This document shows, one piece after another, positions 26,383 to 31,896 of a stretch of 64,000 nucleotides of DNA. Location of the stretch: NCBI RefSeq assembly GCF_023822045.1, contig NZ_CP084712.1:2108001-2172000 (forward strand), written 5' to 3'. The notes beneath the pieces were generated by a model. That model was given only the letters and a program-made list of their open reading frames with translations, was not told where the DNA came from and searched no databases. The stretch comes from Sphingopyxis sp. USTB-05 (GTDB lineage Bacteria > Pseudomonadota > Alphaproteobacteria > Sphingomonadales > Sphingomonadaceae). A program made the position numbers and the translations under genes. The number at the start of each line of letters is the position of its first letter. Within the stretch, counting starts at the first letter, position 1.

Positions 26383-27045
26383 ATGAACGCATTTCCTTTC
26401 GCGACCGTCGGCTTCGACCTCGACGGCACGCTCCTCGATACGCTCGGCGACCTCGCTGCCGCGGTCAATCACGCGCTGGCACTGATGGATCGCGCCCCGC
26501 TGAGCCCGGACGCCGTGCGGCCGATGATCGGGCGCGGAGCGAAGCATATGCTGGAGGAAGGCCTGCGCGCGAGCGGCGGCGTTCCAGAGGGGGCGGTCGA
26601 GCGGCTCTATCCCGAACTGCTCGACTTTTACGGGGCGCATATCGCAATCGAAAGCCGACTTTTTCCTGGCGTAGTCGCCGCGCTGGACCGGCTCGACGCG
26701 CTGGGCGTAAAGACCGCCGTCGTCACCAACAAGGCCGAGCATCTTGCGCGCATGCTGCTTGCCGAATTCGGCTTGGCCGATCGCATGGCGACGATCATCG
26801 GCGGCGATACGCTGAATGTCCGCAAGCCCTCCCCCGAACCGATTCACGCGATGGTGGAGCGATGCGGCGGCGGCCGCGCGGCCTTTGTTGGTGACAGCAT
26901 TTATGACGTCATGGCGGCAAAGAATGCCGGCGTGCCGAGCGTCGCGGTCAGCTTCGGCTTTCTCGATCGCCCTGCGCCGGAACTTGGAGCAACCTATGTG
27001 ATCGACCATTTCGACGAACTGGTTCCGCTTCTCGCGACGCTTTAG
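26383..27045 (+). CDS. gph: Phosphoglycolate phosphatase, HAD family
   Basis: 220 residues from the ATG at 26383. HAD motifs: GFDLDGTLLDT, the TNK motif II, KPSPEP with the lysine, and GDSIYDVMAAKNAG. The Gph-type cap (AAAVNHALALMDRAPLS) is seen. It dephosphorylates 2-phosphoglycolate from DNA repair or Rubisco. Its stop codon lies inside the left arm of a 19-bp inverted repeat. Confidence 0.88.
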   Translation: MNAFPFATVGFDLDGTLLDTLGDLAAAVNHALALMDRAPLSPDAVRPMIGRGAKHMLEEGLRASGGVPEGAVERLYPELLDFYGAHIAIESRLFPGVVAALDRLDALGVKTAVVTNKAEHLARMLLAEFGLADRMATIIGGDTLNVRKPSPEPIHAMVERCGGGRAAFVGDSIYDVMAAKNAGVPSVAVSFGFLDRPAPELGATYVIDHFDELVPLLATL

Positions 27046-27137
27046 GGCGGATCGACATTCAGTTCAGGTACGTGAGCACCGGAAGCACGCGAAATCGCCA
27101 TTTGCAGGCTGTCATGGGCTGAATGTCGATCCGCCCT
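27044..27137. repeat. Perfect 19-bp inverted repeat with 56-base loop
   Basis: Arms 27044-27062 and 27119-27137 are exact reverse complements. They cover the gph stop codon on one side and touch the stop codon of the nucleotidyltransferase gene on the other. There is no T-run. It may work as a bidirectional terminator, or be a small mobile palindromic element. Confidence 0.85.
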
Positions 27138-28150
27138 TAGCGCTTGCGCCACTTCGTCCAGAGATGCCTCGCAAGCATCGCAGGCGGCATGCGCAGCCAG
27201 TGCGAGCGAATATAGAAAGCCTGTTCGAGCAGCGGATCGGTGACGCGGCCCCAATCGTCGCGCGCCAACAGGCGGCGGCGAAACCACGCATCGGCCGGGT
27301 CCTGGCGATCCCATTTCCCGGGCAGCTCCGCTCCATAAAGATCGCGCGCCAACCGCGCCGCCCGATGTACGGGCGTCCGCAACCCGTGGAGATCGGCGCG
27401 CGCATCGAGCTTGCCCCAATAGTCCGCGTCGGCCAGCGCGAATTCGCGCGTCATCAGGTGGAAATCCCACAGATTGCGCAGACCGCCCTGCAAATCGCCG
27501 TCGGCGAGCATATGCGCCGCGCAGTGGCACGCCATGTCGGCAGGGTTCAGCACCGCATGGCCGCTTCCGCTTGTCACGGCGTCGCTCATCAGCGCCAGCG
27601 CATCGGGCGTAATCCGGTGGGTGCGCGGCAGGATCGTGTGGTGGACGTCGATCATCCGGTCGCGCACTTTGTGGATCATCGGCGGCAGCTCGTGCATATG
27701 CTCGCGGTAATAGGCGTCGTCATAGGGATCCGACTTCACCCATTCCCATCCCGCCTTGAGCAACAGATTTTCGGCGCGGCGGATGTCGGAGGCGAGAACG
27801 AGGATATCAAGGTCGCCGATCTGCCGCCCCGCGGCGCACGCCATATCGGCAGCGGCATAGGCTGCCCCCTTCAGCAGCACGAACTCGATGCCCGCGGGCG
27901 CGAGCGCGCGCCGCGCCATCTCCGCCTCCCACAAGGCCTGCGCCTGCGCGACCTTGGCGGCCGCGCGCTGGTCGGCGAAGAGCGCGGCGACAGCCCGCGG
28001 AACGTCGGCATCGACAAGACGATACGCGAGCGTCGCAAGCATCGCCTCGCTACGCGCGACCCCGATCACGCCGTCCCAGTCGCGCGCGAGGAGCGTAGCG
28101 GGAGCACGCCGAGCCGCGAGCAGGTCGACGAAGGTCCGCACCGCGCTCAC
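27137..28150 (-). CDS. Nucleotidyltransferase of the HPr-rel-A-type system
   Basis: 337 residues. It resembles the uncharacterised nucleotidyltransferase family PF14907: an LLKGAAYAAA block, then the metal-binding GRQIGDLDILV (G...DxD), and IDVHHTIL later. The C-terminal half is helical and rich in Trp and Arg. It is last of four overlapping genes (MarR, PqqD-like, HprK-like, this); its ATG overlaps the kinase stop (ATGA). Homologues accompany HprK-like kinases in some lasso-peptide clusters. Substrate unknown. Confidence 0.82.
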   Translation of the reverse strand: MSAVRTFVDLLAARRAPATLLARDWDGVIGVARSEAMLATLAYRLVDADVPRAVAALFADQRAAAKVAQAQALWEAEMARRALAPAGIEFVLLKGAAYAAADMACAAGRQIGDLDILVLASDIRRAENLLLKAGWEWVKSDPYDDAYYREHMHELPPMIHKVRDRMIDVHHTILPRTHRITPDALALMSDAVTSGSGHAVLNPADMACHCAAHMLADGDLQGGLRNLWDFHLMTREFALADADYWGKLDARADLHGLRTPVHRAARLARDLYGAELPGKWDRQDPADAWFRRRLLARDDWGRVTDPLLEQAFYIRSHWLRMPPAMLARHLWTKWRKR

Positions 28151-29025
28151 CGGGCGGTTTCCGCCCAGAGCTGCTCAACCAGCGCGATGCCGGCGGCGCT
28201 GTCGGGATAGGAAATGCCGAACGCCGGCGTTTCGCGAACAAGCCGCGTCAGCGCGGCGAAGCCCGCTTCGCCAAGCGCGACATAGTTGGTCGACGCCTCG
28301 GTCAGCCGCACGAACGCCTCGCCCTCGCCCATCGGCTCGATCGCAGTTTCGCCGCCGAAGCGCGGAAACAGCAACAGGGCAGGACGCGCGGGTTCGTGCA
28401 TCGCGGCAATGGCGCTGGCACGCGGGATCAGGTGACGAATGTCGCCCTTGGGCGTCGCCGCAAGCAATGGCCCGAGCCGAGCCGGATCGACATGCGCCGC
28501 GACCTCAGCAATTGCGTCATTCTTCAGGCTGACCGCGCGCGGAAAGGCAAAGGCGTCGCCCGCGGCGGGGTCGATCAGCGTGAATTCGTCGCCCATCAAC
28601 CGCCAGTCGCCCTCAACGCCCTTCTCGCCGAGCAGCGCCGCGAGGGTCGATTTTCCCGACCCCGACTCGCCCGACATGATCAGCGCGCGGCCGTCCTTCG
28701 CGACCGCGCTCGCGTGGAGCAGCATGTGCCGCCGCCACCCGAGTGCGACCTGCAAATTCATACCCATTTCGGCCGCAAGCAGCCCCATCGACAAGGGGAG
28801 CGGCAGCGCGTCGGGAACGACAAAATCGCCCCCGATATGGACCGGGGGACGCAGCCGGCGCCGCCAGGGCCGCGCCGCGAACAGGCGCACCGTCGCGTCG
28901 GCGGGGCGCGCTTCGTCACGCGGATAGCCGGCGTAAAGTCGCTCAAGCGCCGCGATCGGTTCGGCCCAGTCGCTTCCGATCCGGAACTGCACCGGGCCGA
29001 CGGCAATGCGCGTACTATGCCTCAC
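28147..29025 (-). CDS. HprK-related kinase A
   Basis: 292 residues. The P-loop GESGSGKST lies about residue 125, and a Walker-B-like segment LMGDEFTLIDP follows, as in HPr kinases. The N-terminal HPr kinase regulatory domain is absent, replaced by an unrelated region. I recognise it as the HprK_rel_A type, which occurs beside a PqqD-like protein and a nucleotidyltransferase. No HPr or other PTS gene is in the window, so the substrate is not likely to be HPr. ATGA overlaps with both neighbours. Confidence 0.85.
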   Translation of the reverse strand: MRHSTRIAVGPVQFRIGSDWAEPIAALERLYAGYPRDEARPADATVRLFAARPWRRRLRPPVHIGGDFVVPDALPLPLSMGLLAAEMGMNLQVALGWRRHMLLHASAVAKDGRALIMSGESGSGKSTLAALLGEKGVEGDWRLMGDEFTLIDPAAGDAFAFPRAVSLKNDAIAEVAAHVDPARLGPLLAATPKGDIRHLIPRASAIAAMHEPARPALLLFPRFGGETAIEPMGEGEAFVRLTEASTNYVALGEAGFAALTRLVRETPAFGISYPDSAAGIALVEQLWAETAR

Positions 29026-29303
29026 GCCCGCTCCACCAACCCCATCGCCGCGAGTTCGTCGAGCCGCTCGGCAAGGATCGGCTGCACATCGTCATCGCCG
29101 TCGAAATCGAAGCTTGCCGCAAGCCGTGACGCGAGGAGCGCAGCACCGCACGGGTCGACGCCCATGGCTTCGAGGATTTCGGGCATCGGCGAGACGACGA
29201 GGTGCGTCTGCATGGACCGCCGGTCGAATATCGCGGTCAGCTCACCCAAGGGCTCGATACGCAGCGCGCCCGGCGGCGCGGCGCGATAGGTGCGATCAGT
29301 CAT
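29022..29303 (-). CDS. PqqD-like peptide chaperone (HPr-rel-A system)
   Basis: 93 residues, about the size of PqqD, a winged-helix RRE that binds precursor peptides for modifying enzymes. The fold pattern is seen in LTAIFDRRSMQTHLVVSP followed by a helical region and LAERLDELAAMGLVERA at the end. It overlaps the MarR gene by eight bases and the kinase by four. An RRE implies a peptide substrate, but no precursor gene was identified nearby. Confidence 0.8.
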   Translation of the reverse strand: MTDRTYRAAPPGALRIEPLGELTAIFDRRSMQTHLVVSPMPEILEAMGVDPCGAALLASRLAASFDFDGDDDVQPILAERLDELAAMGLVERA

Positions 29304-29742
29304 AGGTTTCGGCGGCGGCAGTCAGCTTCGCAAGGATGGCCATCAGCGTCGCGCGTTCGCCGGCGGTGATATTCGATTCAAGCTGCGCCTCGCTCGCCAG
29401 CGCCGCAGGAACGATCGCATCATAGAGCGAACGGCCCGTTTCGGTGAGTTCCAGATGATGTGAACGCCCGTCGGCTTCATGCGCCTGGCGCGCGATCAGA
29501 TTTCGGTCGGCCAGCGCCTTTGCAGCGCGGTTCACGGTAACCTTGTCCATCCGCGTCGCCTGCACCAGCTCGCGCTGGGTCTTGGGCTGTCCCTCGCCGA
29601 GCACCGCCATCAGTCGCCATTCGGGAATCTTGAGCCCAAAGCGATTCTCATATTCGGCGGCGATCCGGCTCGAAAGGGCATTTGACGCGATGGACAGGCG
29701 GTACGGCAGGAAATTGTCGAGATTCAGCTTCTTCGCGGCCAT
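29296..29742 (-). CDS. MarR family transcriptional regulator
   Basis: 148 residues from the ATG at 29742 (frame open to 29784). The winged helix is clear: FGLKIPEWRLMAVLGEGQPKTQRELVQATRMDKVTVNRAAKALADRNLIARQ..DGRSHHLELT. Its stop overlaps the PqqD-like start by eight bases, so it is the first gene of a four-gene unit and may control it. Ligand unknown. Confidence 0.9.
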   Translation of the reverse strand: MAAKKLNLDNFLPYRLSIASNALSSRIAAEYENRFGLKIPEWRLMAVLGEGQPKTQRELVQATRMDKVTVNRAAKALADRNLIARQAHEADGRSHHLELTETGRSLYDAIVPAALASEAQLESNITAGERATLMAILAKLTAAAETYD

Positions 29743-29829
29743 GCCTTGTATATCCCAAAAACCGTGAACCCCGGCGCGGACCATCCTATCGCCTGTTTCG
29801 GACCTGTGAAGGGCGCAATGTCGGGAAAA

Positions 29830-31896
29830 TCAGAAAGAAACGCGCGCGCCGACCCAGATCGTACGCGGCGTCGCGCGTTCGACGATACCCGACGAGGAAA
29901 TCGCTGCAGGGACAAGTTCGTCGAACAGATTTTCACCACGCGCCTCGATGCTGATCGCCTCGGCAAGCTTCCACGATACACCTGCATCCAGCGTGAGCGC
30001 ATCGCCCAGTTCCAGAAGCCCGAGGTCGTCCTCATTCTGCTTGCCGACATAGCGTAAGGTCGCAAAGCCACCGAACGGCCCATTCGCATTGCTGCGCAGC
30101 GACACGCTGCCGCCATGCTTCGCGATCTGCGCCGGGCGACGGCCGTCGAGCGTTGCGGCGCCGCCCGACGCGTCGACCTTTGCATCGGTGAAAGCATAAG
30201 TGGCGCGCAGCGTCGCGGGGCCGATCCGCTGCTCGGCGCTGACCTCGACGCCCTTGCTGTCGATCGCGTCGAGATTCTGCCGCTGGTTGAGGTTCGGCGC
30301 GAGCGTCACATTCGCGATCGCGTTCGTCAGATGATTGGCGAACAGCGTCGCGGACAGCTTCGTACCGTCGCTGTTCCAGTCGACCCCGACCTCGCCGCCC
30401 CACAGCCGTTCAGGCTTGAGCATTTCGTTTGCCGTAGTCACCTCGGCGCCGACGCGGAAAGGGCGGTAGAGTTCGTTGAGCGTCGGCAGGCGCCAGCCGC
30501 GATAGCCCGCGGCGCGCAACGACAGCGCGTCCGAGGTCCAGCGTACGCCTGCGCGGCCGCTGCCTTCCCACCCCTGCCGCGCCGCAAAGCGCAGGTCGGC
30601 GATCACGGGGCCGGAAATATTGCGTTCGAGACGATAGCCTTCGCCAAGCGACCAGCGATCGACGCGCCCGCTGAGCGTCCAGAGGAAGCCGTCATTCGCG
30701 TCGCCCGATGTCCATTCGGCGAAAGCGCCGACGGTATCGCTGCTGCCGCCGGCGATGCGGTGGCGGCCGGGGATCACGCCGCTAAAGAAGAAATCCTCTT
30801 CGGTACGGCCGACGGTGCGCCGCCAGTCGAGCCCGAGGCGCAGCGGATTGGCCCCGTCGAGTGCCGGACGCAGTTCGAACCGCGCGCCGAGCCCGGTCGC
30901 GGGAACGCGCTGGAACAGCGCCGGCGCGACGCTGTTCCGCCCCGCCGCGACGCTCGCAAAGCCGCTTTCGAAATCGCGGAGTTGGACATAGGCGAGCGCG
31001 AGCCATTGCGTCGCGCCGGCTGGATCGTGGACGAAGCGCAAGCTCGCATCGACACCGTCGAATTTGCTTTGCGTGAAATCGGTCCCGCGGTCGCGCCGGT
31101 CGGAAAAACCACGCACGCTGGCTTCGATCCGGCTGTCGTCACCGGCGTCGAAACGCAAACGCAGGCCAAGTCCGCCCTGTTCATAGGGCGCGGCGCGATC
31201 GACGCGGCCGCGCTGGCCGTTGGCGACGGGAATGAAGCCGTCGCCGCGGCTATAGCGGCCATCGACCGCCACCTTTCCCTCGCCGATTTCGCCGCCGGCC
31301 GACGCCGATGCGTCCCAGCCGTTGCGGCTGCCATAAGCGATGCTGGCTTCGACGCCATCGGTCATCGTCGAGAATAGGCCGACCGTTCCCGCCAGCGCTC
31401 CGGGACCATCGACCCCGCTCCCGCCGCCCCGGGCAACAAGGATGCCGCCAAGGTTGATCGCGTCATAGGCACTCCACGCGACCCACCCGCCGAAAGGGTC
31501 GGCCTGCGGTATACCGTCGAGCGTTACCAGCGCCCGCGCCGACGCGTTGCCGCCAAGGCCGCGCAACGTGATGCCCTGGCTGGTCGGGTGGGCGGAGCGC
31601 CCGTCCGATCGCCGAAACTGCACGATGCCCGCCTCGTCGCGCAGGCGGTTTTCGATGCGAGCGCCCAAGCCCTGTTCGGGATAGGCAATCAGGCTGGAGC
31701 CCTGCACCGTATCGCCGTCCGCCGGTTGGAGCGCCCCGCTCCCCCTTACGATGATGATTTCGGTCGGAATGCGCGGAACCCAAAAGCTGCAACAGCCGCC
31801 ATCGAATTCGGATTCCTCCGTTTCAGCCTGCGCGTCCTGCGCCATCGCCGCCGCCGGCAATGCCAGCGCGGCCGTTCCGATCAGAAGGCGGATCAC
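29830..31896 (-). CDS. TonB-dependent outer-membrane receptor
   Basis: 688 residues. Signal peptide ending AMAQ; TonB-box-like EIIIVRGSG; a plug domain with GITLRGLGGNASARALVTLDG; then a 22-strand barrel with many alternating aromatic strands, ending in the usual C-terminal phenylalanine (VGARVSF). Odd features: a Cys-Cys pair just before the TonB box and the short plug. No FecI/FecR or siderophore gene is nearby, so the ligand is unknown. maiA starts in the opposite sense of need: it ends at the receptor's start by a four-base overlap. Confidence 0.9.
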   Translation of the reverse strand: MIRLLIGTAALALPAAAMAQDAQAETEESEFDGGCCSFWVPRIPTEIIIVRGSGALQPADGDTVQGSSLIAYPEQGLGARIENRLRDEAGIVQFRRSDGRSAHPTSQGITLRGLGGNASARALVTLDGIPQADPFGGWVAWSAYDAINLGGILVARGGGSGVDGPGALAGTVGLFSTMTDGVEASIAYGSRNGWDASASAGGEIGEGKVAVDGRYSRGDGFIPVANGQRGRVDRAAPYEQGGLGLRLRFDAGDDSRIEASVRGFSDRRDRGTDFTQSKFDGVDASLRFVHDPAGATQWLALAYVQLRDFESGFASVAAGRNSVAPALFQRVPATGLGARFELRPALDGANPLRLGLDWRRTVGRTEEDFFFSGVIPGRHRIAGGSSDTVGAFAEWTSGDANDGFLWTLSGRVDRWSLGEGYRLERNISGPVIADLRFAARQGWEGSGRAGVRWTSDALSLRAAGYRGWRLPTLNELYRPFRVGAEVTTANEMLKPERLWGGEVGVDWNSDGTKLSATLFANHLTNAIANVTLAPNLNQRQNLDAIDSKGVEVSAEQRIGPATLRATYAFTDAKVDASGGAATLDGRRPAQIAKHGGSVSLRSNANGPFGGFATLRYVGKQNEDDLGLLELGDALTLDAGVSWKLAEAISIEARGENLFDELVPAAISSSGIVERATPRTIWVGARVSF

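Follow-up and report, generated by a model that had tools for sequence, protein, structure and literature searches.

An exported-type protein family as the likely partner of the HPr-rel-A kinase trio in Sphingomonadales

The stretch of the Sphingopyxis sp. USTB-05 genome analysed here (64,000 nucleotides, referred to as the window) carries a trio of overlapping genes encoding a PqqD-like protein of the RRE type (recognition element for ribosomally synthesised and post-translationally modified peptides, RiPPs), an HprK-related kinase and a nucleotidyltransferase-fold protein. Comparison across genomes of the order Sphingomonadales identified one family of exported-type proteins that is likely the partner of this trio, and the trio itself is probably a modification module for that one dedicated protein. 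The enzyme types are already known; what is new is the exported-type protein as a candidate target for them. The genes concerned are:

29022-29303, minus strand: PqqD-like RRE protein, presumed precursor-binding adaptor (TIGR04353, 45.7 bits, cut-off 35)
28147-29025, minus strand: HprK-related kinase A with the P-loop GESGSGKST (TIGR04352, 216.5 bits, cut-off 200)
27137-28150, minus strand: nucleotidyltransferase-fold protein, presumed second-step modifier of the phosphate (PF14907, 177.9 bits, cut-off 31.2)
G000:C1 1803599-1804090 (longest frame), outside the window: exported-type protein gene of the source genome

Co-occurrence of the trio and the exported-type protein

One set of 296 genomes from the order was searched for both the kinase and the exported family. 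The kinase exceeded its cut-off in 126 genomes, and two others that narrowly missed it (G093, 197.7 bits; G006, 187.8 bits) were also counted, giving 128 kinase genomes; 155 further genomes with weaker kinase matches only were counted as negative. The exported family was present in all 128 and in 2 of the 168 other genomes, where the matches were weak (E 5e-5 and 7e-4). Its gene lies less than 3 kb upstream of the kinase on the same strand in 112 of the 128. Sixteen kinase genomes fall outside this pattern: 13 are of the same genus as the window, and the remaining three are G172, with the gene about 4 kb upstream, G053, which is split, and G045, in which the two genes lie on different contigs of a fragmented assembly. 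Of the same-genus genomes, 13 of 16, the source genome included, keep a non-adjacent exported-protein gene (nine on the same contig at least 87 kb away, four on a different contig), and this retention after separation argues for function over mere synteny. Within mixed groups the two genes are missing jointly; in genus g10, for example, both are missing from G083, G131, G181 and G279 and both present in G071, G152 and G180. The kinase is present in every sampled genome of g1 (16 of 16) and g20 (10 of 10). Fisher's test of kinase against exported family gives 2e-83 for the 296 genomes with kinship ignored, a value that is not leaned on given that the genomes are related and the candidates per genome limited. 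Given the frequency of the kinase and the recurring gene order, the operon is not a chance assembly.

An earlier note, made from the window alone, described the operon as having no recognised substrate, and the family that adjoins or accompanies the kinase now provides a candidate. The search across genomes for a co-occurring reading frame that the note had suggested was run and found such a frame rather than its absence, at about 120-280 residues and not the 30-80 residues proposed there.

The family itself was identified by clustering the open reading frames (ORFs) of 40 kinase-containing stretches, each at most 20 kb long and picked from the 128 kinase genomes for genus spread, together with the window (41 order loci). 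One protein family recurs just upstream of the PqqD-like gene, and iterative profile searching gave it 37 members, spread over 35 of the 41 loci and mostly lying about 1 kb from the kinase by gene midpoints, L039 and L048 being further off. The six loci without a member are the window, the same-genus loci L062, L064, L065 and L066, and L034. L051 was left out of the alignment because it is cut by a contig end. The other 36 members carry an N-terminal extension, then R-x-x-L, in most cases with RR, and a hydrophobic segment; their middle is variable and their tail contains [ST]-C-x-x-S. The R, L, C and S of these motifs are invariant in 36 of 36. The tail motif falls within the last 26 residues of every aligned member, against 0.54 expected from shuffled tails, and is followed by 5-20 residues after its Ser; by eye, many members have a second Ser close to the first Cys. 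No Pfam or NCBIfam family exceeded its cut-off in the five members scanned, and TatC, of the twin-arginine translocation (Tat) system, is present in the source genome.

One Sphingomonas member was modelled from 23 sequences, giving a predicted template modelling score of 0.49. Its core blocks have mean predicted local distance difference test (pLDDT) values of 83-91 and its tail values of about 44-52, with residues 128-135, which include the tail Ser, below 50; on this model the tail is probably disordered. A fold search of the Protein Data Bank (PDB) with this low-confidence model returned no match (best E 6.5). In L049, L072 and L068 the variable middle contains long Asp- or Gly/Asn-rich stretches that look as if suited to metal or surface binding. 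Paralogues of the exported protein lie away from the trio in L080-L084, of family f5 (genus g53), and a gene for an extracytoplasmic function (ECF) sigma factor with DUF6596 stands upstream of such paralogues in three loci scanned.

The profile matches make the trio an HPr-rel-A cassette whose enzyme types are those of paeninodin-type tailoring. All three proteins pass the cut-offs listed above, TIGR04353 being the HPr-rel-A system PqqD family peptide chaperone (PqqD_rel_X). The HPr-rel-A cassette includes a nucleotidyltransferase, and the PF14907 gene of the window overlaps the kinase gene by 4 bases, so that the earlier assignment to this type stands. The kinase is the only TIGR04352 protein over cut-off in the source genome by profile search, a second match reaching 23 bits over profile positions 92-141 only. 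BLASTP placed a PqqD-like relative next to the kinase in 74 of the 80 named loci. Invariant residues of the kinase are H104, G122, G124, K125, T127, D146, E147, K168, K193 and G194 (37 aligned sequences) and those of the nucleotidyltransferase are K94, G95, D113, D115 and D168 (27 aligned sequences, the window included in both sets). A His-Lys-Asp-Asp set is reportedly required by lasso kinases (excerpts of PMC9266682), and by the invariant residues both window enzymes look intact. The AlphaFold2 model of the window nucleotidyltransferase has a mean pLDDT of 91.3, and its best match among solved folds is MenT1 (E 5.9e-4), then ANT(2'') and, more weakly, FKRP; a PDB sequence search returned nothing meaningful.

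It is conceivable that the trio acts on HPr or a small metabolite, as a true HPr kinase/phosphorylase does, and the kinase profile does match HprK structures weakly over the P-loop (1ko7, E 4e-4; 1jb1, E 7e-4). However, this is improbable for two reasons: first, the kinase belongs to the separate curated family TIGR04352. Second, it travels with the PqqD-like and exported-type proteins.

Loci beyond the order

The kinase exceeds its cut-off in 61 of 398 genomes of the phylum, 13 of the same order and 48 labelled at phylum level alone. An RR-signal protein gene stands at the same place in all 20 loci inspected among those 48, and its product ends in [ST]CxxS in nine. A profile built from these nine was tried on 20 of the remaining 28 outside loci and matched in 17, every one of them with [ST]CxxS; the stretch of L206 yielded no kinase ORF. 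The two outside sets share genera, and the second is thus a check rather than an independent sample. The exported-type proteins without the tail in L098, L099, L106, L110 and L111 share, by eye, a C-x-[ILV]-S-G motif immediately after the predicted signal, which is a possible alternative target. In L203 and L215 the kinase sits directly behind a gene that by eye is glycosyltransferase-like or nucleotide-sugar-dehydrogenase-like, and no exported-protein gene separates the two.

Outside the order, the neighbours of the trio are XrtA/PEP-CTERM exopolysaccharide genes. An amidotransferase behind the trio forms a cluster in 8 of 20 outside loci, one member scoring 942 bits against a cut-off of 817 for TIGR03108, and further neighbours are a glycosyltransferase (TIGR03088), PrsK (TIGR02916) and its response regulator (TIGR02915). 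With one member per cluster scanned for identity, the 20-kb order loci contain exosortase A (cluster 19) in 7 of 41 and the XrtA amidotransferase (cluster 28) in 5 of 41. GlmU and other housekeeping genes are among the neighbours in the window's own family.

This setting raises the possibility that the exported protein works with the trio without being its substrate. In that case the product of the enzymes would be a modified exopolysaccharide, lipid or other peptide, which the exported protein would carry, bind or anchor. The exopolysaccharide genes around the trio in other classes, the exosortase A and XrtA amidotransferase genes near it in some order loci, and the strong variation of the exported proteins between their conserved ends are all consistent with such a role. 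It is nevertheless unlikely: an RRE-type protein implies a peptide partner, the exported family is the one family found in all 128 kinase genomes (and the sole candidate partner family searched for genome-wide), and its invariant Cys and Ser lie in the probably disordered tail.

The amidotransferase also bears on a connection to lasso peptides, given that the XrtA amidotransferases and lasso cyclases both belong to the asparagine-synthase superfamily. The source genome contains a lasso-type cluster at C1 ~2.491-2.494 Mb (L220 5276-8081) with PF13471 and PF00733 proteins and, by eye, two short precursors, which raises the possibility that a lasso peptide from another part of the genome is what the trio modifies. 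This scenario is the least probable of those weighed and was rejected: the cluster lies about 350 kb from the trio, the two short ORFs end in Asp (LTQD and LSQD), where lasso kinases use a C-terminal Ser (excerpts of PMC8498205), and the amidotransferase beside the trio in other classes reaches 287 bits against the lasso-cyclase cut-off of 525.

Proposed chemistry on the exported-type protein

Two precedents suggest what the trio would do to the exported-type protein. In pseudomycoidin, a kinase phosphorylates the C-terminal Ser and a nucleotidyltransferase is needed for the addition of one or two hexoses to the phosphate (excerpts of PMC8498205 and PMC9266682). In the linear polyphosphorylated peptides (LPPs) of Bacillota, an RRE, an HprK-like kinase and a nucleoside triphosphate (NTP) transferase serve a linear precursor, the kinase places several phosphates onto one Ser, and deletion of the NTP transferase caused no change in a heterologous host (excerpts of PMC13381572). 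From these precedents, a Ser of the exported protein would be expected to receive phosphate from the trio, and perhaps also a sugar or nucleotide. It is suggested that the PqqD-like RRE would dock the precursor of the exported protein, that the HprK-like kinase would put at least one phosphate on a Ser, the likeliest site being the invariant Ser in the [ST]-C-x-x-S tail, and that the nucleotidyltransferase-fold enzyme would then add a sugar or nucleotide to the phosphate, by analogy with pseudomycoidin. The product would be exported by its RR-type, probably Tat, signal and trimmed by signal peptidase. The chances of this chemistry, which is drawn by analogy, appear evenly balanced. The tail Ser is the leading candidate site from the alignment, and it is a candidate only, given that a second Ser near the first Cys is common and that CxxS is missing from 11 of 20 outside loci, in which the tail Ser cannot be the target.

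Several points weigh against a dedicated substrate of this kind. Modification of the exported protein is a prediction throughout, and the [Y/W]xxP leader motif of lasso and LPP RREs is not in the consensus of the 36 members. Beyond the order, 11 of the first 20 loci have an exported-type protein that lacks the CxxS tail; in the second set L203, L209 and L215 have no profile match and carry other genes at that place, L202 matches on the opposite strand, and the ORF of L210 is short at 82 residues. The Tat signal was read by eye, one of five scanned members matching a Tat-signal model, below its cut-off. A crude signal test was leaky, passing 30 of 40, 12 of 20 and 15 of 19 loci, in some cases through the wrong ORF, as well as 294 of 1964, 89 of 700 and 20 of 186 control ORFs, and it was rejected as proof. 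The low pLDDT of the tail may partly reflect the 23-sequence alignment. Finally, the 128 kinase genomes are related and not independent, and at most 8 kinase and 12 exported-protein candidates were scored per genome, so that some absences may be misses.

A wider reading, held tentatively and at slightly less than an even chance, is of a system widespread in the phylum in which an RRE guides a Ser kinase and a nucleotidyltransferase-fold enzyme to the flexible CxxS tail of a dedicated Tat-exported protein, which would show a phosphate-linked and possibly sugar-bearing Ser on a periplasmic or surface protein. A RiPP-type tailoring module would here have become a permanent means of protein modification and would not be a sporadic natural-product cluster; some genera would have it as a fixed trait, and elsewhere it would often go with XrtA-type exopolysaccharide loci.

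The window, its sub-lineage and known systems

In the window the trio is fronted by two other genes, the four-gene operon standing behind the TonB-receptor gene:

29296-29784, minus strand: MarR-family regulator (PF12802, 51.1 bits, cut-off 27)
29830-31896: TonB-receptor gene

The four operon genes overlap by 8, 4 and 4 bases, and on re-measurement these overlaps proved real. The MarR-side end given earlier, 29742, lies within the longest MarR frame, and the MarR start is uncertain. The earlier note regarded MarR as a notable front gene of the system. One possibility is that MarR is an integral sensor and that the enzymes serve a MarR-controlled response. Its 8-base overlap with the PqqD-like gene agrees with this, as does its place in the 80 named loci, where the upstream flank was covered for as much as about 6 kb and for a shorter distance in a few: 46, by title Sphingopyxis or close relatives, carry a MarR at least 45% identical and no exported-family member in the covered stretch. 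The 31 loci with an exported-family member, however, include none with such a MarR, and the MarR cluster occurs in only 5 of the 41 order loci (of the other named loci, L174 has neither gene and L159 and L161 are truncated). A sensor role is therefore very improbable, and by gene order MarR is a lineage-specific neighbour and not part of the conserved system.

The source genome contains one exported-family copy, with a profile match at G000:C1 1803701-1804087 (E 3.6e-43), about 331 kb from the trio. No substrate is visible in the window given this distance, and the earlier statement that no obvious precursor lies nearby is right for the window and fails for related loci, where the candidate gene adjoins the trio. 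On the comparison of loci, the exported-protein gene and the trio have parted in the window's sub-lineage, and MarR and the TonB-receptor gene now front the trio. The separated gene remains divergent to a PhoR-like gene of cluster 4, a cluster found in 29 of the 41 order loci. The PhoR-like neighbour scores 304 bits against the 334 of TIGR02966 and a PstS-like neighbour 162 against 207, both short of their cut-offs. Given that the exported-protein gene is often divergent to the PhoR-like gene, upstream regions were checked for Pho boxes; the best matches had 5.32 mismatches on average and those in shuffled sequences 5.44, and phosphate control of the gene was rejected. L187, from a record titled Bacillus sp. 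2B10, has a Sphingomonas-like copy of the whole arrangement with 63% kinase identity, and the record is probably mislabelled or contaminated.

No B2 protease or cyclase was found among the seven window proteins scanned (the four operon genes, two upstream and one downstream), as had been noted earlier. A defence-system library gave no match to the trio and a weak one of MarR to a CARF model (20.2 bits). A perfect 19-base inverted repeat with a 56-base spacer (window 27044-27137) sits between the convergent nucleotidyltransferase and haloacid dehalogenase (HAD) phosphatase genes, touching both stop codons; the 17-base core of its arm has no other copy in the genome at up to one mismatch.

The trio shares with the known HPr-rel-A system the kinase and PqqD-like families, both over curated cut-offs, beside a PF14907 nucleotidyltransferase; the HPr-rel-A model names state no substrate, and a conserved exported-type protein is added here. 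Paeninodin and pseudomycoidin lasso systems likewise combine a B1-like RRE, an HprK-like kinase and a nucleotidyltransferase, with a Ser near a C-terminus as the proposed target. Unlike them, the trio has no B2 protease or cyclase, the one PF13471 match of the source genome being about 350 kb away; lasso kinases modify the last residue, whereas residues follow the tail Ser in all 36 candidate precursors, and the product would be a protein and not a knotted lasso peptide. The LPPs resemble the trio in having an RRE, an HprK-like kinase and an NTP transferase, no macrolactam cyclase and a position near polysaccharide loci, but their clusters additionally encode a SipW-like peptidase and an MsbA-like transporter (excerpts of PMC13381572). 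Neither was recognised by eye among the recurring neighbour clusters, for which no peptidase or transporter profile was run. The LPP leader motif YxxPxVLxHQxIxFETxxS (excerpts of PMC13381572) is, by eye, absent from the consensus of the 36 candidate precursors. The present precursor differs as well in its RR-type signal and in the folded core of the single model built, and its hosts are of another phylum than the Bacillota. DUF2063-associated RRE systems use a modifying enzyme of another kind. They too pair an RRE with an export-signal precursor, DUF2282, whose signals are Sec-dependent in contrast to the RR-type here (excerpts of PMC12710340).

A full-text search on the HPr-rel-A family names found no paper within a coverage that excludes most subscription journals. 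A combined search on HPr kinase, RRE/RiPP, PqqD, twin-arginine and nucleotidyltransferase gave no title on the present system, returning lasso peptides, RREs, other RiPPs and assorted genomes instead. The excerpts of two RRE papers (PMC7470986, PMC12710340) contain no mention of a kinase, PMC13381572 gives no match for Sphing- or twin-arginine, and a sphingomonad paper with PqqD and nucleotidyltransferase terms (PMC10040529) was set aside, its excerpts listing lasso-cluster genes instead.

In summary, HPr-rel-A proteins have been named in genome annotation without a stated target, and the pairing described here narrows the test to one exported protein, one leading candidate Ser and one kinase. 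If the proposal is true, RRE-guided Ser phosphorylation would reach beyond the short peptides of Bacillota and the lasso peptides and include an exported protein in the standing gene set of some genera, and the role of a phosphate-linked tag in the envelope would become a matter of interest.

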